Assembly: GCA_019359415.1 (NCBI GenBank)
Contig: JAHHHH010000013.1
Span: 54,052-118,051, forward strand
Direction: 5' to 3'
Source of the DNA: Iphinoe sp. HA4291-MV1
Lineage (GTDB): Bacteria > Cyanobacteriota > Cyanobacteriia > Cyanobacteriales > Nostocaceae
DNA: 64,000 nt
Made by a program: the position numbers and the translations under genes. The notes below the pieces were generated by a model. That model made no database searches and had not been told where the DNA came from. It was given only the letters and a program-made list of their open reading frames with translations. Below are positions 111 to 64,000 of the stretch, in pieces (the stretch's first letter is position 1; each line of letters begins with the position of its first letter).

Positions 111-148
111 TTCATGTCAAAATTCTTGATTTCATGTCAAAATTCTTG
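111..148. repeat. Two tandem copies of a 20-bp unit
   Basis: TTCATGTCAAAATTCTTG occurs at 111-128 and again at 131-148, a direct repeat with 20-bp period. No function is evident; it sits just beyond the 3' end of the small minus-strand reading frame at 154-381. Confidence 0.8.
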
Positions 149-153
149 GTATT

Positions 154-381
154 TTAGCGCAAACGAGTTTGTTTCTCTAAACTCCAAATTGTTTTTTCCC
201 AAAGGGCTAACACCGTGATATCCTGGTTTTCAGTCAGCAGTTTGAACGCCAAAGTTGTCACATTGGGGTTAGCTGCTAAGTGGGACTGAGCACAGCTTTT
301 GCCTAGCTCCTGTATCAGAGAATAGGTCAGCTTATCGCCTTGCTGGTCTAGACCCATTGAATCACATAGTACACCAATCAT
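154..381 (-). CDS. Possible small hypothetical protein (75 aa)
   Basis: A 75-codon minus-strand frame starting at ATG 381. The product is soluble-looking with a plausible amphipathic pattern and no membrane segment or motif I recognise. A purine-rich stretch (TAGGATG) lies upstream but at poor spacing. It is isolated and followed by A/T-rich DNA. I do not recognise the family; it may be a real small cyanobacterial gene or a chance frame. Confidence 0.3.
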   Translation of the reverse strand: MIGVLCDSMGLDQQGDKLTYSLIQELGKSCAQSHLAANPNVTTLAFKLLTENQDITVLALWEKTIWSLEKQTRLR

Positions 382-617
382 CTTGACAACGCATCCTACA
401 GGCGAAAAACCAGTTTTCAGCTAAGACGCAAAAGTTGAGCTTCATCCAAACGTTATCAAAGATGATCTGCTGTATAATAGATGTATAATAATAGAAGTTT
501 TAAATGTGTTGTAAGTTTAGTAAAAAATTATTGTGAATTACAATATTAACTAGCATAACTAACAAAATAAATGTATTAGATTAAGAAAGAAAATCATTTT
601 CTTTCTCAAAGTCAAAC

Positions 618-845
618 TATAGCAGTTCTATCTGAATTTATGGAAATTATCAACCGCCAGGACACTTTCGCCCTTCGCCCTTCGCGCAGCGTCTCCCTTA
701 GGAGAAGGGGCGACGCCAGAGGCGAACGCGCAGCGTCTCCCTTAGGAGAAGAGGCGACGCCAAAGGCGAACACGCAGCGTCTCCGCCAGGAGAAGGACGC
801 CAAGAAAGAGAGAGAAAAAAGTTCGAATCATTTAGGATTGCTATA
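618..845. mobile_element. Putative MITE-like element with TA ends
   Basis: The left edge reads TATAGCAGTTCTATCTGAAT (from 618) and the reverse complement of the right edge reads TATAGCAATCCTAAATGATT (ending at 845). These match at about 15 of 20 positions, starting with seven identical bases, and both ends begin with TA. TA-flanked imperfect inverted ends are typical of IS630/Tc1-type non-autonomous elements. The interior is a GC-rich tandem repeat, so this may be a chimera or a host for secondary repeats. No transposase is encoded. Confidence 0.5.
681..800. repeat. 44-bp GC-rich tandem repeat, about 2.5 copies
   Basis: The core CGCAGCGTCTCCCTTAGGAG starts at 685 and 729, with a diverged copy at 773, giving an exact 44-bp period. 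Each unit contains CCTTAGG/GGAGAAG inverted parts and a GGCGACGCC palindrome. Related GCGCAGCGTC-type repeats occur near 9.6 kb and 55.2 kb, so this is a dispersed family in this genome. Confidence 0.75.
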
Positions 846-941
846 TTAAAAGGCTTATTTAATGCCTACTATGATTGCCATTTAAACTTTGAGTTCCAAC
901 GAGAAATTGCACATAAATATCTAGTAAAGGAGGAAGCCAAT

Positions 942-1982
942 TTGTCTAAATCCTACAATGTAGCTATTTTGGGAGCTACTGGTGCCGTTGGCAAAGAGTT
1001 GCTGGAATTATTAGAAAGCCGTAATTTTCCTGTTTCTGACTTAAAGTTATTGGCATCAGAACGTAGTGCAGGACGAACACTGCCTTTTGAGGGGGAAGAT
1101 TTACCAGTAGAACCAGTGAGTGAAAAAGCTTTTGAAAACGTAGATTTAGTACTAGCAAGTGCGGGTGGTTCCACATCGAAAACTTGGACACCAAAAGCTG
1201 TCGCGGCTGGTGCTGTGGTGGTTGATAACTCCAGCGCGTTTCGCATGAGTCCGGAAGTTCCTTTGGTAGTTCCAGAAGTCAATCCAGAAGCTGCAGCGAA
1301 CCACAAAGGTATCATTGCTAACCCTAACTGTACGACAATTTTGATGACAGTCGCAGTGTGGCCCCTACATAAAGTTTCACCAGTGCAACGGCTTATGGCC
1401 GCAACTTACCAATCTGCCAGCGGTGCTGGTGCTCAGGCAATGGAAGAAGTGAAAACTCAAGCAAGTGCCATTTTAGCAGGCAAGCAACCTGTTGCTGAAA
1501 TCTTTCCACATCCGTTGGCGTTTAATGTATTCCCACACAACTCCCCATTGAATGACTTGGGGTACTGCGAGGAAGAAATAAAAATGGTTAATGAGACTCG
1601 CAAAATTTTTGGGACTCAAGAAATAAGAATTACTGCAACTTGTGTACGGATTCCCGTACTTCGTAGCCATTCGGAAGCGATTAACCTAGAATTTGAAGTG
1701 CCATTTAGCCCAGATAAGGCGAGAGAAATTCTAAGTCAAGCACCTGGTGTGAAATTGGTAGAAGATTGGAAGGCAAATTATTTCCCAATGCCAATTGAAG
1801 CTACAGGTCGAGATGAAGTTTTGGTAGGGAGAATTCGTCAAGATATTTCTCACCCGTGCGGTTTAGAATTATGGTTATGTGGTGATCAAGTCCGCAAAGG
1901 AGCAGCTTTAAATGCAATACAAATTGCTGAGTTATTAGTAGAAAGAAATCTGCTAAAACCAGCAGTAGTCGCTAGTCATTAA
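942..1982 (+). CDS. asd: Aspartate-semialdehyde dehydrogenase
   Basis: NADPH-dependent reduction of aspartyl phosphate to aspartate semialdehyde, the branch point to lysine/diaminopimelate, threonine and methionine; cytosolic. The 346-residue product starts with the Rossmann motif GATGAVGKEL (about 10-19) and carries the catalytic cysteine in NPNCTT at Cys130, with the QSASGAGAQAME segment following. Length fits the family. The start is TTG at 942, supported by a strong ribosome binding site (AAAGGAGGA, 926-934) at ideal spacing. dapA follows on the same strand, the next enzyme in the pathway, so co-expression is likely. Confidence 0.96.
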   Translation: MSKSYNVAILGATGAVGKELLELLESRNFPVSDLKLLASERSAGRTLPFEGEDLPVEPVSEKAFENVDLVLASAGGSTSKTWTPKAVAAGAVVVDNSSAFRMSPEVPLVVPEVNPEAAANHKGIIANPNCTTILMTVAVWPLHKVSPVQRLMAATYQSASGAGAQAMEEVKTQASAILAGKQPVAEIFPHPLAFNVFPHNSPLNDLGYCEEEIKMVNETRKIFGTQEIRITATCVRIPVLRSHSEAINLEFEVPFSPDKAREILSQAPGVKLVEDWKANYFPMPIEATGRDEVLVGRIRQDISHPCGLELWLCGDQVRKGAALNAIQIAELLVERNLLKPAVVASH

Positions 1983-2154
1983 TCCTCAGTCATGAGTGAT
2001 TTTGTGATAGATACCAGACAAAGAACAAATAACCTAGGAAGAATGCGTAAATTACGCTTGAAAGAAATAGTCAGATAGGTTATGACAGTATAAAACCACC
2101 AAGACCTACAAAAAAACTGAAGAACAAAGAGAAATATTTAGGAGTGAAAAGAGG

Positions 2155-3039
2155 GTGGTAGATTTTGGCAGAGTTCTAACCGCTATGATTACGCCGTTTA
2201 AGGAAGACGGCAGTGTTAATTATGATGTTGCAGCAGCATTAGCCGCACATCTCGCTGACAACGGTACGGATACAATTGTGGTATGTGGTACCACGGGAGA
2301 ATCTCCTACCCTGAATTGGGAGGAAGAATACCAATTGTTTTCTGTGGTGTTGCAGACGGTAGCAGGAAGAGCATCTGTGATTGCAGGGTGTGGCTCCAAT
2401 TCCACAAAAGAAGCAATTGCCGCTACCCAAAAAGCAGTTAAAATAGGAGTACATGGGGCACTGCACGTTGTTCCTTACTACAATAAACCCCCACAAGCAG
2501 GGCTTTATCAGCACTTTGTGGCGATCGCTCAGTCTACGCCTGACCTACCTGTGCTGTTATACAATATCCCTGGTCGTACAGGTCAAAATCTTCAACCAGA
2601 AACAGTTGCTCGGTTAGCTGAGATTGACAATATTGTCGGAATTAAGGAATCTACTGGCAATATAGATCAAGCAAGTGAAATTCGCCGCTTGACGCCAAAA
2701 GAATTCCAGATTTATTCTGGTGATGATTACATGACTTTACCTCTCTTGGCAATAGGAGCAAAGGGAGTCGTCAGTGTGGCTTCTCATCTGGTAGGAAACC
2801 AGCTACAAAAGATGATTCAAGCCTTTGATACAGGTCAAACTCAAGTAGCCAGGGAAATACATCTCCACCTCTTCCCTCTGTTTAAAGCTTTATTTGCAAC
2901 GACAAACCCCATCCCAGTAAAGAAAGCACTAAACCTTTTAGGTTGGGAGGTTGGTTCAACTCGTCCGCCGTTGTGCGAATCTGATTCACAAATCAGTCAA
3001 AAGTTAGAGCCAATTCTCAAAGAACTTGGTCTAATTTAG
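2155..3039 (+). CDS. dapA: 4-hydroxy-tetrahydrodipicolinate synthase
   Basis: Condenses pyruvate with aspartate semialdehyde to make hydroxytetrahydrodipicolinate, the first step committed to lysine and peptidoglycan diaminopimelate. The 294-residue TIM-barrel product shows GTTGES (about 45-50), the YNIPGRT segment, and the Schiff-base lysine in GIKESTGN (Lys164). The start is GTG at 2155, preceded by TTAGGAG. It lies 172 bp after asd and uses its product. Feedback inhibition by lysine is known for the family but not readable here. Confidence 0.96.
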
Positions 3040-3350
3040 CAGAAACTTGATGAAGGTTGATTAGCTCATTTGCCTGAGAAAATTATAAAAAAAGTGGTTA
3101 ACTTTACCGTAATTGTGGGTAAAAAGTTTGTGCTAAAACTGGATAAATATATTTATGGATTTTGAGCTTTTAAAGCCTAATTAATTAAATAACAATTTAA
3201 CATCTGATAAAAATTCAGCTGTTTTCAGACTGATTTTATAGACTACTTGTCTCGTCAGTTTTACAACAACGTTAAATTCCACATATTTATCGACAAAGAA
3301 CAATCTCTAAATTTCACATTTTTATTAACAAAGAACACTCTAAGGAGAAA
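3040..3350. other. Intergenic leader of rnj
   Basis: About 310 bp of A/T-rich DNA between dapA and rnj, with no open frame of note. It ends with a clear ribosome binding site (CTAAGGAG) just before the rnj ATG. A promoter is expected but I cannot assign boxes with confidence. Confidence 0.5.
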
Positions 3351-5123
3351 ATGACTAAAAACGAAACTTTAGCCGCCCTAAAAATTATTCCATTGGGCGG
3401 TTTGCATGAAATTGGTAAAAATACCTGTGTTTTTGAGTATGACGACGAAATGATCCTGTTAGATGCAGGATTGGCTTTTCCTACAGACGGGATGCACGGA
3501 GTTAATATTGTTCTCCCAGACATGACTTATGTACGGGAAAATCGTCATAAAATTAAAGGAATGATTGTCACCCACGGTCATGAAGACCATATTGGTGGGA
3601 TAGCCTTTCATCTCAAGCAATTTGAAATTCCTGTGATGTATGGTCCTAGACTAGCATTGGCAATGCTAGAGGGAAAATTGGAAGAAGCAGGGGTACGCGA
3701 TCGCACTGAATTAAGAACCGTTCTCCCCCGCGATGTGGTGAGAATTGGCAAACATTTCTTTGTGGAATATATTCGCAATACCCACTCCATTGCTGACAGC
3801 TTTACTGTGGCAATTAATACACCTGTTGGCGTAATTATCCATACAGGAGATTTCAAATTTGACCATACGCCAGTAGATGATGAACGTTTTGACTTACAAA
3901 GGCTAGCTGAGCACGGTGAAAAAGGCGTACTGTGCTTGATGAGCGACTCAACAAACTCGGAAGTACCGGGGTTCACGCCTTCAGAACGTTCTGTGTATCC
4001 AAATTTAGAAAGGGTATTCACTCAAGCAACTGGGCGATTGTTTGTGACAACTTTTGCTTCTAGCGTGCATCGCATTAACATGATTTTGCAACTGGCGCAA
4101 AAGTACAAGCGTGTCGTCACCGTGGTAGGGCGTTCTATGCTGAATTTGATTGCCCATGCCCGTAATCTAGGATACATCAAGTGTGATGACAATCTTCTTC
4201 AGCCATTGCATACAGTTCGCAATATGCCAGATGAGAATGTGTTGATTTTGACGACTGGTTCTCAAGGCGAGCCAATGTCAGCGATGACGCGCATTGCCAA
4301 TCAACAACATCCCCATATTAGAATTCGACAAGGAGATACAGTCGTTTTCTCAGCCAACCCCATTCCTGGAAATACAATTGCTGTGGTCACCATCATCGAT
4401 AAGTTGATGATGCAAGGAGCAAACGTCGTTTATGGTCGGGAAAAAGGAATTCACGTCTCCGGTCATGGATGTCAGGAAGATCAAAAGCTGATGATTGCTC
4501 TGACTAAACCCAAGTTCTTCCTACCAGTTCATGGAGAACATCGGATGCTGGTGAAGCATTCCCAAACGGCTCAGAGTATGGGCATTCCTGCGGAAAACAT
4601 GGTCATTATTCAGAATGGGAATATTGTCGAACTCACTGAAGAATCAATCCGTGTTGCTGGTAAAGTCCCCTCTGGTCTGGAACTAGTAGATACTTCTGGC
4701 AGTGGAATGGTTAGTGCGAAAGTGTTGCAAGAACGCCAACGTATGGCAGAAGAAGGTATTGTCACAATCGCGATGGCGGTAGATTGGAATGGTAAGCTCA
4801 TGGCAAAGCCAGAAATTCATCTACGAGGTGTTGTAACGAGCGTTGAGCGCTCCTTGCTGCAAAAATGGGTGCAACAGCGGATAGAAGAAATTCTTAGCGT
4901 TCGGTGGTCAGAATTTACCCAATCTTTTGATGATGAAAATCAAGAGGTCAACTGGGCTGGATTACAAGCACAATTGGAGAGAGAACTCGCGCGATCGCTG
5001 CGAAAGGAACTGCATTGTCAACCATCTGTCACTTTATTGATGCAAATTCCTGATGAGCCACCAGTAAAAGTTTCTGATGGCAGAAGGCGTCGCACTCGTA
5101 CTGCTGCTCAAGTTGCATCGTAA
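3351..5123 (+). CDS. rnj: Ribonuclease J
   Basis: Metallo-beta-lactamase/beta-CASP ribonuclease, with 5'-to-3' exo- and endonuclease roles in mRNA turnover and rRNA maturation in the family. The 590-residue product carries the zinc motif HGHEDH at 75-80, a downstream TGDFKFD aspartate motif, the beta-CASP region with SGHG, and PVHGEHRML. A C-terminal domain follows and ends in a basic tail (RRRRTRTAAQ), plausibly RNA-binding. ATG at 3351 follows AAGGAGAAA. The asd-dapA-rnj order is common in cyanobacteria. Confidence 0.95.
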   Translation: MTKNETLAALKIIPLGGLHEIGKNTCVFEYDDEMILLDAGLAFPTDGMHGVNIVLPDMTYVRENRHKIKGMIVTHGHEDHIGGIAFHLKQFEIPVMYGPRLALAMLEGKLEEAGVRDRTELRTVLPRDVVRIGKHFFVEYIRNTHSIADSFTVAINTPVGVIIHTGDFKFDHTPVDDERFDLQRLAEHGEKGVLCLMSDSTNSEVPGFTPSERSVYPNLERVFTQATGRLFVTTFASSVHRINMILQLAQKYKRVVTVVGRSMLNLIAHARNLGYIKCDDNLLQPLHTVRNMPDENVLILTTGSQGEPMSAMTRIANQQHPHIRIRQGDTVVFSANPIPGNTIAVVTIIDKLMMQGANVVYGREKGIHVSGHGCQEDQKLMIALTKPKFFLPVHGEHRMLVKHSQTAQSMGIPAENMVIIQNGNIVELTEESIRVAGKVPSGLELVDTSGSGMVSAKVLQERQRMAEEGIVTIAMAVDWNGKLMAKPEIHLRGVVTSVERSLLQKWVQQRIEEILSVRWSEFTQSFDDENQEVNWAGLQAQLERELARSLRKELHCQPSVTLLMQIPDEPPVKVSDGRRRRTRTAAQVAS

Positions 5124-5155
5124 GCAACAGATAGCCTAAGGCATAAGGCATAATG

Positions 5156-5227
5156 GATGTAACGGATAAGTTATCTTTTAGTCAACCAGACAAACTGTCC
5201 GTTATGTCCGTTACATCATCCGTTGCC
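5156..5227 (+). terminator. Hairpin after rnj
   Basis: GATGTAACGGA (5156-5166) pairs perfectly with TCCGTTACATC (5217-5227). The 11-bp stem has a 50-nt loop and begins 33 bp after the rnj stop. It lacks a U-tract, so it may be a transcript-end structure or a repeat rather than a classic intrinsic terminator. Confidence 0.45.
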
Positions 5228-5871
5228 AACTTTAACCCGGATTTCTCACTTATGAGAAAAAACACTTGGATGAGCAAAATTTAGAATAATTTAATTGATA
5301 CATCATTATTAAATTAGATGAACGAGCCGGATAAATCAAAGTAAAAACCGAAAACTTAAAGATAAATAAATGACATATTATCTGTTTGACACGGAGATAA
5401 AAAATCGTGATAAATGAAAGTAGAACAGTAACATAGTTTATCAAGTTATTTTTACACGGTTCCTTATCCCAACTATCAAGATGCATACCAACGAAAGAAT
5501 CAGTTTTTCTTGGTGCAAGATGTTAGTTCCCAATAAAAACTCAATTAATTTTCATTAAAAAAGTCACAAAAAGTCTTAAAAATATAATTTTTTTCATGGG
5601 GAGTGTTAAATATCGCAGCCAAGAATTACGCTCAAAACGCTCTGTACAAGAGATTTAAGAGAGATGCAGGGCATTTTCAGGCGGGAAAATAAAAAGAAAA
5701 GTACTAATCTTCTTCTCGTCAAACCTATAGTTTGATTTGTTGAAGATCAGTACTTTCCTTGTTCGCGTATTCATCTTTAGATCACTCTACCCTGAAGGGG
5801 TAGAGTGATCGGCTTCTCTGCCGTTCTAGCTCACTAAATAACCACTAAGGAGTTCTCAATCCTACTAACTC
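5228..5871. other. Intergenic region between convergent rnj and pdhB
   Basis: No gene is supported in 5228-5697, which is A/T-rich. Two strong hairpins lie next to the pdhB end. The first is an imperfect stem at 5698-5756 (AAAGTACTAATCTTC pairing with GAAGATCAGTACTTT, with an inner TCAAAC/GTTTGA stem). The second is the perfect stem listed separately at 5780-5810. Confidence 0.6.
5780..5810. terminator. Perfect 13-bp hairpin downstream of pdhB
   Basis: GATCACTCTACCC (5780-5792) pairs with GGGTAGAGTGATC (5798-5810) around a 5-nt loop. It lies 60 bp beyond the pdhB stop on the minus strand, between convergent genes, so it probably ends transcripts from either side. No long U-tract is present. 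Confidence 0.6.
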
Positions 5872-6855
5872 CTAAACGCGCAAAGCCACCATCTTTTCCA
5901 CTGCTTCAACAATTTGCTCTGGTTGAACAATGGTTAATCTCTCCAGAGTTCCATTATAAGGCGTGGGAATATCTTGGGAAGAAAGCCGTAGTACTGGTGC
6001 ATCTAATTCATCAAATAAGCGTTCATTGATGGAAGCGATTAATTCTGCTCCAATGCTCCCTGTTCTCATACCTTCTTCCACAATAATCACTCGATGGGTT
6101 TTTCTTATAGATGCACCAATTGTATCAAAATCTAGCGGTTTGAGCGATATCAGGTCAATGACTTCTGGGTCATAACCTTGTTTTTCCAATGTCTTGAGCG
6201 CTTGCGTCACATGATGTCGCATCCGTGAGTAAGTAAGGATTGTGACATCTTTTCCCTGTCGCACAACTTCTGCTTTATTCAAAGGCAGCAGATATTCTTC
6301 TTCTGGTAGATCTTCTTTCAAGTTGTAAAGCAGAACGTGTTCAAAGAACAACACTGGATTATCATCACGAATAGCTGATTTCAGTAATCCTTTGGCGTTG
6401 TAAGCTGTGGAGCAGGCGACAATCTTTAACCCAGGTACAGCTTGGAAGTATGTTTCTAGACGCTGGGAGTGTTCTGCACCAAGCTGTCTGCCTACACCTC
6501 CAGGACCACGGATAACCATTGGAATTTTAAAGTTACCACCGGAGGTATAGCGCAGCATTCCAGCATTGTTGGCTATTTGGTTGAAAGCAAGAAGTAAGAA
6601 TCCCATGTTCATGCCTTCAACGATTGGTCGCAACCCGGTCATTGCTGCCCCAACAGCCATACCTGTAAAGCTATTTTCGGCGATCGGGGTGTCTAAAAGT
6701 CGGAGTTCACCATATTTTTGGTATAAGTCTTTAGTCACTTTGTAGGAACCGCCGTAGTGTCCTACGTCTTCACCAAGAACGAATACAGTTGCGTCTCGCG
6801 CCATTTCTTCATCAATGGCTTCCCGCAAAGCGTTGAAGAACAGTGTTTCTGCCAT
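5872..6855 (-). CDS. pdhB: Pyruvate dehydrogenase E1 component, beta subunit
   Basis: Beta half of the thiamine-diphosphate E1 heterotetramer that decarboxylates pyruvate for acetyl-CoA synthesis. The 327-residue product has the family pattern: [10 protein letters not shown] near the N terminus, [46 protein letters not shown], and a C-terminal transketolase domain with [12 protein letters not shown]. The start ATG at 6855 has AAAGG upstream. The alpha subunit is not in the window, which is usual in cyanobacteria where the pdh genes are scattered. Confidence 0.95.
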
Positions 6856-6883
6856 TAGACCTTTATTGCGATTATTGTTCTAG

Positions 6884-7075
6884 AATCTTAACGCGCATCT
6901 GCTCTCTCAGACGGTGAGCGATCGCACGAGTTGCTTGTTTAAACCCCTCAAAGAGGAATTGGCAGGCTACTACCGCTATCGTATCGGCAACTATCGAGTG
7001 ATTTATCAGATTGATGATGACACAAATCAAGTTATTGTCAATACTATTGTTCATCGACGAGAGGCGTATAAATAA
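6884..7075 (+). pseudogene. RelE/ParE-type toxin remnant, 5' truncated
   Basis: The plus strand from about 6938 to the TAA at 7073-7075 encodes a typical toxin C-terminal half: PLKEELAGYYRYRIGNYRV, then IYQI and HRREAYK. This resembles the core beta-sheet of RelE/ParE toxins with its GYYRYRIGNYRVIY signature. The frame is open back to a TAG at 6881 but has no start codon, and the usual first 35-40 residues are missing, replaced by unrelated sequence next to pdhB. No antitoxin gene is adjacent. Best read as a dead toxin gene. Confidence 0.7.
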
Positions 7076-7108
7076 AGAGGTGGGGGAGTGAGAATGTAAG
7101 CTGAGTAT

Positions 7109-7198
7109 ATGCCCAAGAAAATTAGAGAATTAAAAAACTTGTTATTCCAAGCAGGATTTACTTATAAACCTGCAAAAGGTAGCCATAGTAAATTCTAG
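7109..7198 (+). pseudogene. HicA-type toxin remnant, 3' truncated
   Basis: ATG at 7109 opens a 29-codon frame, MPKKIRELKNLLFQAGF followed by KGSHSKF, ending in TAG at 7196-7198. The dsRBD-like start and the catalytic histidine context G-S-H-S-K match HicA mRNA interferases (YcfA family), which normally run to 60-80 residues. The rest of the domain and the usual hicB partner are absent. It starts 33 bp after the RelE-like remnant, so two toxin relics lie side by side. Confidence 0.65.
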
Positions 7199-7323
7199 GA
7201 AAATTCTGGAAGGTGGCATAGAAGTAAAAGTGAACTACCCCACCTTAGCTGTACAGAATGACTCCAGTAATTTTGACCAATGATTCCTTGATGGTACAAG
7301 CCCCCGGATAAATCCTGTGGAAC

Positions 7324-7414
7324 CAATTCCATTATCTAAAATCCGCTCATTCCCAAGCAAGCGGATTGATCCGTGGGGTCAATTCCATTATCCAAAATCT
7401 AAAATCCGCTCATT
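7324..7414. repeat. Direct repeat, about 28 bp, two copies
   Basis: CAATTCCATTATCTAAAATC (7324 on) recurs at 7380-7414 as CAATTCCATTATCCAAAATC with a short insertion, both followed by CGCTCATT. The DNA between also repeats CGGAT..ATCC..GTGG, so a larger unit was duplicated. There is no coding role; it lies between the toxin relics and the XRE regulator. Confidence 0.65.
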
Positions 7415-7488
7415 GTCTGACTGATGATTCTGAGTTCTTTGTTGATCACTTGTTTGAGGAACTGGAAACTCGGAGCTATAAATTTAAC

Positions 7489-7833
7489 TTAGTATCCAGC
7501 TTCTTTCAAGTGGAAATTTGGCGAATCAGGGACTTGATTAACTTGACTCACCTGATTTATTTGAGGAGTTTGATTGACCTGATTTTCAGGAAATCTTCTG
7601 GGTCTTCCTGGTTTACGCTTGTGTCGTTGATTGATAGATTTTTCGCTTGCAGTAGCCAGTTCTTCCGGTGTACATTTAAACAGCCGCAATGCATCTAAAT
7701 ATTTTTTGGGTGTCATGGTAGGTTCTGTACGCCCCGCTTCCCAGTTGCGAACACTAGTTTCACTAATTGCAAGCCTGAAGGCAACCTCTGCACGGCTAAG
7801 CCCCGCACGCTCTCTCAGGACTTGCATATCCAT
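7489..7833 (-). CDS. XRE-family DNA-binding regulator with AT-hook-like tail
   Basis: A 114-residue protein with an N-terminal HTH_3/XRE domain (about 1-60): LRERAGLSRAEVAFRLAISE, then SVRNWEAGR. After it comes a basic stretch, HKRKPGRPRRFPE (about 70-83), whose core GRPRR resembles an AT-hook. A low-complexity tail of N-Q-V/I repeats follows, encoded by a short DNA repeat. The product is predicted to bind DNA as a repressor; targets unknown. It could have been an antitoxin-type regulator given the toxin relics next door, but their strand and spacing do not support a joint operon. Confidence 0.75.
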   Translation of the reverse strand: MDMQVLRERAGLSRAEVAFRLAISETSVRNWEAGRTEPTMTPKKYLDALRLFKCTPEELATASEKSINQRHKRKPGRPRRFPENQVNQTPQINQVSQVNQVPDSPNFHLKEAGY

Positions 7834-8202
7834 ACCTAATGCTCCCTTTCCAAAACTATAGTACTTATTTATTAAATCAATTGACGTAAAAAAGCCAACT
7901 GAGGATTATTTCTTAACTATATTATTTTATAATCTATTACTTACGTATCTGGCAAACGGGCGATAACCCTCACCCCCTAAAGTCCTTATTTTCCTAACGT
8001 TTAGGAAACAGCCTCTATAAATAGTGTAAGTCTATATGTCATGGAAAAAGTCTTGGCATTTAAATTTATCTCCCAATTAGAGGATAATCTCACACCCAGC
8101 CACAAAGACACCTAGATTTACTCTGCGCCCTTGCGGCTGTATGTGAGATTATCAAAAGTTATTAAAACTTAATTTTATTGCTCTTGAGGCAAAGGTTACC
8201 AC
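7834..8202. other. Intergenic region between hemB end and XRE gene
   Basis: No gene seen. It contains a short palindrome TTTCCTAACGTTTAGGAAA near 7992-8010, upstream of the XRE gene and a conceivable operator, and the inverted repeat at 8083-8153 listed separately. Confidence 0.5.
8083..8153. repeat. Perfect 12-bp inverted repeat, 71 bp overall
   Basis: GATAATCTCACA (8083-8094) is the exact reverse complement of TGTGAGATTATC (8142-8153); inside it CAGCC/GGCTG extends the stem. It lies 50 bp past the hemB stop on the minus strand. It may be a small MITE-like repeat or a transcript-end hairpin; no obvious target duplication was found. Confidence 0.55.
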
Positions 8203-9183
8203 TTATCGCAACCACCGTGCTGCATCTTTGGCGTGGTAAGTTAAAATCAAATCTGCTCCGGCACGTTTAAAGCCAATGAGAGTTTCCATCACCACACGCT
8301 GTTCATCAATCCAGCCATTCAAAGCTGCAGCTTTAATCATGGAATACTCACCAGAGACGTTATAAGCCGCAACAGGCAAGTTGCAAGCTTCCTTAACGCG
8401 CCAGATCACGTCCATATATGCCAAAGCTGGCTTCACCATGAGCATATCCGCACCTTCAGCAATATCCAGTGCAATTTCTTTTAGGGCTTCGCGAGAATTA
8501 CCTGGGTCCATCTGGTACGTTCGGCGATCGCCAAACTGTGGAGCTGAATCTGCAGCATCCCGAAACGGACCGTAGTAAGCCGAAGCATATTTAGCAGCAT
8601 AAGACAAAATCGGGGTATCTTGGAATCCTGCTTCATCCAAAGCGCTACGAATGGCTTGCACAAATCCATCCATCATCCCGGAAGGAGCAATGATATCTGC
8701 CCCTGCTTGTGCCTGAGAAATCGCTGTTTTCCCAAGTAAATCCAGAGTTGGGTCATTCAAAACCCGCCCAGTTAAATCACCCACTTGCAAGTAACCGCAG
8801 TGTCCATGACTCGTGTACTCACACAGACAAGTATCAGCAATGACAATCAAATCTGGTACTGCTTTTTTAACAGCAGTCGCTGCTTTTTGAACAATACCGC
8901 AATCATGCCATGCGCCAGTGGCATCCACATCTTTATCTGCAGGAATGCCAAATAAAATAATGGCAGGAATTCCTAAGTCATAAACTTCCTTTGCCTCTTC
9001 CACGATTTTGTCTACCGAAAGTTGGTAAACTCCGGGCATCGATCTGACTTCATTCGCAATTCCCTCACCTGGTACGGCAAACAGAGGGTAAATTAAATCA
9101 TTGGTGGTTAAAACCGTTTCGCGTACCATACGGCGTAATTGTGGATGGGTACGCAGACGACGAGGGCGATGAGTAGGAAACAT
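8203..9183 (-). CDS. hemB: Delta-aminolevulinic acid dehydratase (porphobilinogen synthase)
   Basis: Condenses two 5-aminolevulinate molecules to porphobilinogen on the path to heme, chlorophyll and bilins. I choose the ATG at 9183 (product [11 protein letters not shown]...), 326 residues, as 14 upstream in-frame codons look non-coding and the family starts here. Motifs: metal-binding segment [14 protein letters not shown] (about 120-133), active-site lysines in the SYAAKYAS and LMVKPALAY segments. Product of a single gene with its own transcription; no neighbours share the pathway. Confidence 0.95.
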
Positions 9184-9828
9184 AAATTTTTGTAAACTGG
9201 ATAATAGACAATGGACACAAAACAAAGCACCACAAAGTAGGACATAAATGCTTTGTCCTCAGACATGCTACAAAAAGTACTTAACTGTTACGCCACTTGC
9301 ACGCCCCTATCAGCAGAGCGCGATAGCACAGTGGCTTCTGTTGTCCTACTGTTTGTGAGATTGTGTGGTAACTTTGTATTCTACAGCTATATTGTCAAAC
9401 AAAAATCTTAAAAATCCCCTCTATTTCTCCCTCTGGACGTCACCTCTTCTCCTGTCGGAACAGGTGAGCCAACGGGGAATTCAAAATTCAAAATTGTTCG
9501 CGCAGCGTCATGAAAAATTAATGGTGATGTGCGCGTAATTAGTCCAGAATGAAAGACCCACTAGCCTATGGTTTTTTGATGCATAGACTTCTTTGCACTC
9601 ATTCGCTCTTCTCGCGCTCAACTTTTGCGTCTTTGCGACGCCAGATACCTACGGTAAGTCCTGCGGACAGGCTTGAGCCAACGCGTAGCGTCTGGGCTAT
9701 TGAGAGGGAAACCCTCATCAAGTACAGGCTCGTCTACTCTGCGAGAACGGCTCCGCCGAATGCGTGAGACAAAAAAATATTTATGCCAGAGGTCTAATGA
9801 CTAACAGCTAATGGCTCATGACAAATAA
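9184..9828. other. Repeat-rich intergenic region
   Basis: About 640 bp without a supported gene. From about 9590 to 9775 the sequence is GC-rich and contains GCGACGCCAGATACC, GCGTAGCGTCT and similar strings of the dispersed GCGCAGCGTC repeat family also seen at 0.7 and 55.2 kb. Open frames there are repeat artefacts. Confidence 0.6.
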
Positions 9829-32518: not shown

Positions 32519-33083
32519 TTCCAGTAGCATGCATGACATTCTCAAAATCCAATCTCAAAATCCAATTAGATGGAGTAGCAACAAAGAAGGAAAATATCTT
32601 TTGAGCCTCTCAATAAAGCTGACTTTTCCCGTTAAGTCGGGAATCATTGAAATAGCAAGGGTTTCACACCCAAGTTTATTCTCAACAAGTGAATTGTAAT
32701 GACAATCAATCACGAGAGAATAGGACTTTGGGATAGGGGGCATAGTAAGCGATCGCTTCGCCAAAAAGATAACGGGAAAAGTCAGATGCATAAATGATTG
32801 AAACTCCACCTGTAAATGAGGTGCAACTGCACACCATAGTCATACCAGCAAATCTTAAAAGATTTCTATTAGAAGCAGATTCCACTAAAAAAGATGAATT
32901 GTGGGATCAATCAGGTCTTGAGTTAGTACTACCTATCTTAGATGCAGGTGCAGTTCAATTTCGAGATGGTAGTTTTCGCCTTGGTCAAGTGAGCCGCGCC
33001 CTTACAAATCCTCACGCCAATGTTGACTCAAAGCAAAGCGAAGCAGAGTTAAGAGCAAGTATCAAAAAAATATTGCCTAAATT

Positions 33084-33295
33084 CAGTAGACCGAAAACTT
33101 TTGTCAGTCAACGCAAGAATGAGGGTTTGGGGCGATGTTTTTGGCACAGGGTCGAGCGATCGCTTACCTTAGCAGGAGAACTCATCTACAACCCTATTGC
33201 TCAAAACGCAGATGATACGGGCATTCTGGCGGATTGTATACAATCCGCCAGAATGCCCCAATGGTAAGCCTTCTAGAAATCTTTTCGGTCTACTG
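33084..33295. mobile_element. MITE-like element A, copy 1 (212 bp)
   Basis: Ends CAGTAGACCGAAAA and TTTTCGGTCTACTG are perfect 14-bp inverted repeats. The host sequence AAATT is duplicated on both sides (33079-33083 and 33296-33300), and removing the element plus one copy restores the oxidoreductase frame CCT AAA TTA GGC. No transposase is encoded. It includes a perfect 40-bp palindrome at 33219-33258. A second, inverted copy starts at 63877. Confidence 0.88.
33219..33258. repeat. Perfect 40-bp palindrome inside element A
   Basis: GGGCATTCTGGCGGATTGTA followed directly by its reverse complement, with no loop bases. It can form a cruciform or a 20-bp RNA hairpin. The same palindrome occurs at 63914-63953. 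Confidence 0.92.
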
Positions 33296-33596
33296 AAATT
33301 AGGCAATTTACCAGGAACTTGGCATCATTGCTTGGTGTCATTCAGTAGAGATGCACTCCCCTTGATTAGTCTCATCCCAGAGCGCGAAGGCGTTCATGTT
33401 TTTTCTGGTTTTAGCAATCCCCTTGTGATTGTGCCTTGTGATTGTGCCTCCTCTGGCACAACGCTTTGCTAACTGGGTTTTTGGAATGGAAGACGAAATT
33501 ATTACTAAATTGTCCCCTGTTCGCTTTCAAAACTTTCTATAGTCTTTTAAGAAAAACTAATACTTAATTATTATATAATATACAATATTTCATATA

Positions 33597-63467: not shown

Positions 63468-63899
63468 ATGCAAATATTCAAGACGCTACTACGGGTTCGG
63501 CACTATGAAATGGACGCTTTAGGACACGTCAATAATGCAGTCTACCAAAACTATCTAGAACAGGCGGCTATTGAACACTCTGAGCACCTGGGCTTAACTT
63601 TCGATGTCTATCGGGAAGTGGGCGGTGTATTCGTCATGCGACGCGTAGAAATTGACTACTTGCGTCCTGCTGTAGCTGGCGATACACTAGAAGTCACTAC
63701 TTGGGTGAAGGAAATGCGTGGTACCCGTGTGTATCGACAGTACGAAATTCGTAAACAAAACCAAGAAGATTTATTAGTAACTGCTGAAGCTCTATGGGTA
63801 TGGGTAGATGCCAAGACAATGCGCCCTCGACCTATTCCTGATATGTTACTAGAAAAATTCTTGCAGATACGAACATCAGTAGACCGAAAAGATTTCTAG
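63468..63899 (+). CDS. Acyl-CoA thioesterase (4HBT/YbgC type), C terminus supplied by element A
   Basis: 143 residues, hot-dog fold: LLRVRHYEMDALGHVNNAVY (catalytic-type Asp), NYLEQAAIEHSEHLG, VEIDYLRPAVAGDTLEVTTW. Might hydrolyse acyl-CoA or dihydroxynaphthoyl-CoA-type esters; substrate not inferable. The last seven codons (S-V-D-R-K-D-F) and the stop lie in or at the edge of element A starting at 63877, so the native end has been replaced. Confidence 0.87.
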   Translation: MQIFKTLLRVRHYEMDALGHVNNAVYQNYLEQAAIEHSEHLGLTFDVYREVGGVFVMRRVEIDYLRPAVAGDTLEVTTWVKEMRGTRVYRQYEIRKQNQEDLLVTAEALWVWVDAKTMRPRPIPDMLLEKFLQIRTSVDRKDF

Positions 63900-64000
63900 A
63901 AGGCTTACCATTGGGGCATTCTGGCGGATTGTATACAATCCGCCAGAATGCCCGTATCATCTGCGTTTTGAGCAATAGGGTTGTAGATGAGTTCTCCTGC
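63877..64000. mobile_element. MITE-like element A, copy 2 (partial, runs off the window)
   Basis: 124 bp identical to the reverse complement of 33172-33295, beginning with the terminal repeat CAGTAGACCGAAAA and including the 40-bp palindrome (63914-63953). The other end lies beyond the window. Orientation is opposite to copy 1. Confidence 0.9.

Follow-up and report, generated by a model that had tools for sequence, protein, structure and literature searches.

A 212-bp MITE with ISH3-type ends, present in many near-identical copies in the cyanobacterium Iphinoe sp. HA4291-MV1

Introduction

MITEs have been described before in cyanobacteria of the order Nostocales. Those of Anabaena sp. 90 were termed type II because no IS of that genome had their ends, according to the accessible part of the report (PMC3542288). 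The accessible text of a further paper (PMC10969869) covers Nezha, a cyanobacterial MITE reported active, and Chunjie, a MITE of Geobacter uraniireducens. As to the ISH3 family of insertion sequences, an earlier count in Nostocales gives one element, in Nodularia spumigena CENA596 (PMC5853447, accessible part).

Here we analysed a window of 64,000 nucleotides of Iphinoe sp. HA4291-MV1 (contig C22:54052-118051; genome of 7.36 Mb in 140 contigs) containing a MITE with the same 14-bp ends as an autonomous ISH3-family element of a congener. The enzyme that moves the MITE very probably comes from a larger element of that family, and we infer that it acts in trans.

Results

A 212-bp element inserted in a broken oxidoreductase gene

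The element occupies positions 33084-33295 of the window (plus strand) and is bounded by perfect 14-bp inverted repeats (14/14 match), CAGTAGACCGAAAA on the left (33084-33097, plus strand) and TTTTCGGTCTACTG on the right (33282-33295, minus strand). Direct reading places one copy of the target duplication AAATT on either side (33079-33083 and 33296-33300, both plus strand). The original prediction of a 212-bp MITE-like element with these ends and this duplication was thus exact when re-measured. Its interior had been described as free of transposase, and indeed we found no such gene within the 212 bp; an overlapping frame in the list enters from the host gene and ends at 33267. The interior holds a perfect 40-bp palindrome made of two 20-bp arms with zero loop (33219-33258, no strand). 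An identical inverted stretch had also been noted from 63877, and all 124 of its 124 bp match the reverse complement of the MITE. This second copy (63877-64000, minus strand) reaches 124 bp inward from the right end and is incomplete because the window ends where the contig ends.

The MITE splits the remnant of a gene (32794-33510, end approximate, plus strand) for the C-terminal part of a DAO-type FAD-dependent oxidoreductase, with orthologs in six congeners. One of these orthologs (G001) matches Pfam DAO with 36.8 bits against a cut-off of 27.9, and the window's own pieces of the gene gave no Pfam match. The stretch around the insertion site was found in six of seven congeners and the site is empty in 6/6, with a single AAATT and no insert, so that the 212 bp are absent from the orthologous host gene, as expected of a mobile element; G003, the seventh congener, did not yield the stretch, and its contig ends nearby. 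The claim that removing the MITE plus one AAATT restores an open frame holds locally, but the joined frame diverges from the orthologs further downstream. The gene is therefore also broken independently of the MITE, with a second repeat lying close upstream. This other MITE-like repeat (32619-32785) is 167 bp long, has 16-bp perfect inverted ends (CTGACTTTTCCCGTTA) and at least 15 more near-full-length matches in the genome at 77-91% identity (40 of 51 candidates scored); no flanking direct repeat was seen by eye.

Many copies with one variable site

The exact 14-bp end occurs 129 times in the genome and the reversed control pattern 0 times, so that the abundance of the motif is not due to chance. 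In the loci retrieved, 55 left ends of the type CAGTAGACCGAAAACTTTTG could be matched to a right end, and 52 of the 55 pairs span exactly 212 bp. The three others (315, 211, and 255 bp) are different elements and were excluded from copy counts. The 52 complete copies share identical boundaries and differ at a single site, element position 59, with G in 43 and T in nine; the window copy has the T haplotype. The right-end 20-mer occurs 55 times, once in each of the 52 complete copies and three times at contig ends. Adding to the 52 complete copies five further left ends at contig ends gives at least 57 copies; of the 129 places of the end motif, the first 100 were listed. No more than 17 of the 129 motifs can be assigned to other elements or to fragments (13 of these viewed by eye). 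Common boundaries across genome copies and recent activity, both anticipated in the original prediction, are thus borne out, and we read the pattern as a recent burst that started from a single source copy or from two.

Target duplications are of exactly 5 bp in 48 of the 52 copies, of 6 bp in one, and absent from three. All 48 read ANNNT, with 24 different sequences among them. The window target, ATTGCCT-AAATT-AGGCAAT, is palindromic. Across the 48 sites, the fixed outer A and T alone always pair; since the other positions pair in just 9-22 of the 48 (no formal test), we take the palindrome at the window target as a coincidence and rejected a palindromic target preference.

Insertions are depleted in long open frames: 20 of 45 sites lie in a frame of at least 120 codons compared to 69% of ANNNT positions (binomial P ~0.0004), and 14 of 45 in a frame of at least 150 codons compared to 60% (P ~0.0001). 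Here, 45 of the 52 sites had enough flank, and the control was the ANNNT positions of the 64-kb window only. Copies are also clustered, with 10 adjacent pairs less than 10 kb apart among the 55 listed right ends (3.9 expected; p 0.0035, a value that ignores contig ends). On contig C115, five MITE copies lie within 9.3 kb (145-9451; L071), a density matched by 0 of 2000 random placements.

ISH3-family elements with the same ends

A full-length IS bounded by these 14 bp, the search for which had been proposed along with the original prediction, exists in a congener and not in the own assembly. In Brasilonema sp. CT11 (G005; L129, 501-2349), an 1849-bp element has 14-bp ends identical to those of the MITE, a duplication ACCGT, and a 378-aa transposase scoring 233.9 bits with the NCBIfam ISH3 model (NF033541; cut-off 225) and 28.5 with Pfam DDE_Tnp_1 (cut-off 23); a protein of Brasilonema sp. 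CT11 is 100% identical to it. Several ISH3-type elements of Nostoc have ends identical to the first 20 bp of the MITE on its left. When the longer end CAGTAGACCGAAAANTTTNGCGATCGC served as a search pattern, with one mismatch tolerated, 30 of 150 genomes matched, own genome counted, and relatives of the CT11 transposase gave matches in 46 of 150, again counting the own one, many of them mere fragments.

Ends vary within the family. Eight ISH3-transposase loci show the types CAGTAGACCGAAAA (the CT11 element), CAGTAAACCAAAAA, CAGTAGATCACAAA, and CAGTAGATGGAAAA, and at seven loci with more distant ISH3 transposases (54-60% identity) the ends differ from CAGTAGACCGAAAA. Out of 44 named ISH3 loci, we examined 26 with near-complete transposases, many with stops; one of the 44 (L252) is the CT11 element itself. 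CAGTAGACCGAAAA flanks 18 of the 26 on both sides with at most one mismatch, exactly in 12, and the remaining eight have it at one end, have more distant ends, or have none that was found. A matching 5-bp duplication accompanies six of the 18 copies with good ends (L253-L280) and is missing from 12. In 11 of these 12 both flanks nonetheless read ANNNT, and recombination between old copies may have removed the duplications.

Elements of the ISH3 family duplicate 4-5 bp of target. The ACCGT of the CT11 element, the ANNNT of the MITE, and the duplications of the six autonomous copies agree with this. Tn3-derived MITEs (TIME) also make 5-bp duplications, and their ends are of about 38 bp and begin with GGGG; we rejected this assignment since the ends of the MITE begin with CAGTAGACC and match over 14 bp.

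Two further elements with these ends carry passenger genes. One (L102:680-1527, genome G144) has the duplication ACATT and a DUF6985 gene, and the other (L124:1501-2883, genome G054) has the duplication AAATT, a DUF6694 lipoprotein gene, and a gene without family match. No transposase frame was seen in either, and they look like mobile insertion cassettes.

Traces of ISH3 elements in the own assembly

The NF033541 profile gave 0 matches in the own assembly at E up to 0.1, in a search that was positive in 5 of 14 control genomes. The sole trace of the transposase is a 43-aa remnant (E 1.6e-4) with two stops. All of the contigs seen (67 of 140) are at least 10,371 bp long, which suggests that the assembly was length-filtered and that short IS contigs were possibly dropped. 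Contig C63 begins 124 bp inside an ISH3-type end, an overhang about equal to that at eight MITE-bearing contig ends (120-124 bp). Together, the apparent filter and this contig start make a missing autonomous copy plausible, and we read the start of C63 as the mark of one.

Two other arrangements of ends were seen. A 2.1-kb stretch of C115 (10806-12916; L071, L072) has AAATT at each end and two ISH3-type end fragments facing outward; these are short, and their orientation led us to reject them as the ends of one autonomous element. On C99 (116526-116564; L296), a 39-bp unit consists of two end repeats of the CAGTAGATCACAAAGTTTC type back to back, with ATAGT on either side, and lies about 0.1 kb inward of an older CAGTAGACCGAAAA-type end. 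No further copies of it were found in 150 genomes, and a family of such end-to-end palindromes was rejected on this ground.

Relatives of the MITE and its palindrome

Among 149 other genomes (five candidates scored in each), the best near-full-length match to the MITE has 79% identity (query 7-212), with higher values over parts only, so that the burst is private to its own species among the genomes and candidates covered. In relatives, 12 of 26 candidate elements, of 205-238 bp, have 5-bp ANNNT duplications and align with the window MITE mainly at both ends, from which the MITE family appears to be old. The MITE matches autonomous ISH3 elements over the first 20-21 bp only, with no clear similarity beyond. 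A simple internal deletion in any of the copies seen would thus not give the MITE, and we rejected that origin. A plasmid or phage vehicle was likewise rejected: plasmids gave two weak matches (72% identity over 61% and 80% over 29% of the element), and phages none.

The palindrome is perfect in the copies of the own genome and imperfect in aligned relatives, where the left arm is largely retained and the right arm differs, reading ACTCGCTTAAATGAACGG in G014, similarly in others, and AATCCGTCAAATGAACGG in G024 and G011. The perfect part is 18 bp in G024; for the remaining rows, the top inverted repeat among those listed is either shorter or situated elsewhere. Going from G024 to the window, every difference in the right arm yields the exact complement of the left arm (by eye). 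Such a pattern is the signature of template switching that corrects a quasi-palindrome, a known process (PMC8794818, accessible part), and the palindrome seems to be a clear instance of it inside a mobile element. The 22-bp core of the palindrome had no match in the contigs of 84,980 species, a set that may leave out the own genome.

Discussion

We consider it highly likely that the element is a MITE whose terminal repeats are those of a cyanobacterial ISH3-family IS and that it is moved in trans by an ISH3-type transposase. The basis is the set of ends, the duplication, the empty site, the many near-identical copies, and the autonomous element of a congener with the same ends and an ANNNT duplication. 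Against it stand the eight of the 26 ISH3 loci without such ends on both sides, the presence of a matching duplication in only six of the 18 with them, the lack of clear similarity to autonomous elements beyond the first 20-21 bp, and the absence of an ISH3 transposase from the own assembly. The latter, in an assembly searched for the ISH3 family alone, and the unlikeness of the interior to ISH3 elements would fit a different transposase of the own genome that recognises the same ends, the link to ISH3 then being one of shared ancestry of the ends only. We find this unlikely, given that an ISH3 transposase in a congener lies between exact copies of the 14-bp ends, with an ANNNT duplication of 5 bp outside them, that ends within one mismatch flank 18 of the 26 ISH3 loci, and that an assembly apparently devoid of contigs below 10 kb, together with the start of C63, makes a missing autonomous copy plausible.

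Near-identity has to be read with the assembly in mind, since short-read assemblers can flatten rare variants within repeats. If this happened here, the near-identity of the copies may be inflated, and the eight contig ends that fall 120-124 bp inside the MITE are in line with such trouble. That the multiplicity of identical copies is itself partly an artefact is nevertheless very improbable, because the flanks differ among the 52 complete copies, 48 of which bear their own 5-bp duplication (24 sequences in all). The strong folding of the unit (z -7.85) and the presence of related elements in other genera could instead speak for a conserved repeat with a regulatory or structural-RNA role, maintained by selection, rather than a recent transposon. 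The fold, however, is made largely of the end repeats and the palindrome, and the latter is not perfect in any aligned relative; Rfam gave just four weak matches to microRNA models, all on the palindrome, with E 0.094-0.49 and far under gathering scores, so that structural RNA was rejected; no terminator-like site was found in the MITE, and there is one promoter-like match where 0.7 are expected. With orthologous sites empty in 6/6 congeners already contradicting it, this explanation is left with a negligible probability.

For the ISH3-driven MITE we propose the following course. A DDE transposase of the ISH3 type, supplied from elsewhere in the cell, would bind the CAGTAGACCGAAAA ends and excise the MITE, or copy it; the MITE would then be joined to target DNA cut with a 5-bp stagger at ANNNT, and repair would convert the stagger into the 5-bp duplication. 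The palindrome might have contributed to the burst: perfected by template switching, it could have made an old low-copy MITE a high-copy one, through a 40-bp hairpin that favours excision, replication, or escape from host control. We regard such a causal role as improbable.

A MITE with ISH3-type ends is an ordinary type of element, here unusually well resolved. We found no description of an ISH3-family MITE of this kind in the accessible open-access literature, and one may be known in subscription papers or ISfinder. The interest of the locus lies in a MITE that is cleanly delimited, was active recently, and can be paired with a likely donor family of IS. Now that its ends, its likely donor, and its target rule are available, movement in trans by an ISH3 transposase becomes directly testable.

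Compared to ISH3-family IS (NF033541; the 1849-bp CT11 element and the elements of about 1.5 kb in Nostoc and Tolypothrix), the MITE has the same 14-bp ends, the same first 20 bp, and the same 5-bp ANNNT duplication in those IS copies that have one, but it is 212 bp long, has no transposase gene, and does not share their interior. The MITEs of Anabaena sp. 90 (PMC3542288), likened here by the description in the accessible part of that report, are also short inverted-repeat elements of a nostocalean host, some of them splitting genes; they were described there without a donor, whereas the MITE studied here has an IS counterpart with identical ends in a congener. Nezha (PMC10969869), again likened by its accessible description only, is comparable as a cyanobacterial MITE. 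Chunjie, as far as the accessible text of the same paper describes it, is similar in size (178-235 bp) and in copy number (38 with conserved ends), but its copies vary in length, while the 52 copies described here have one length and one variable site.
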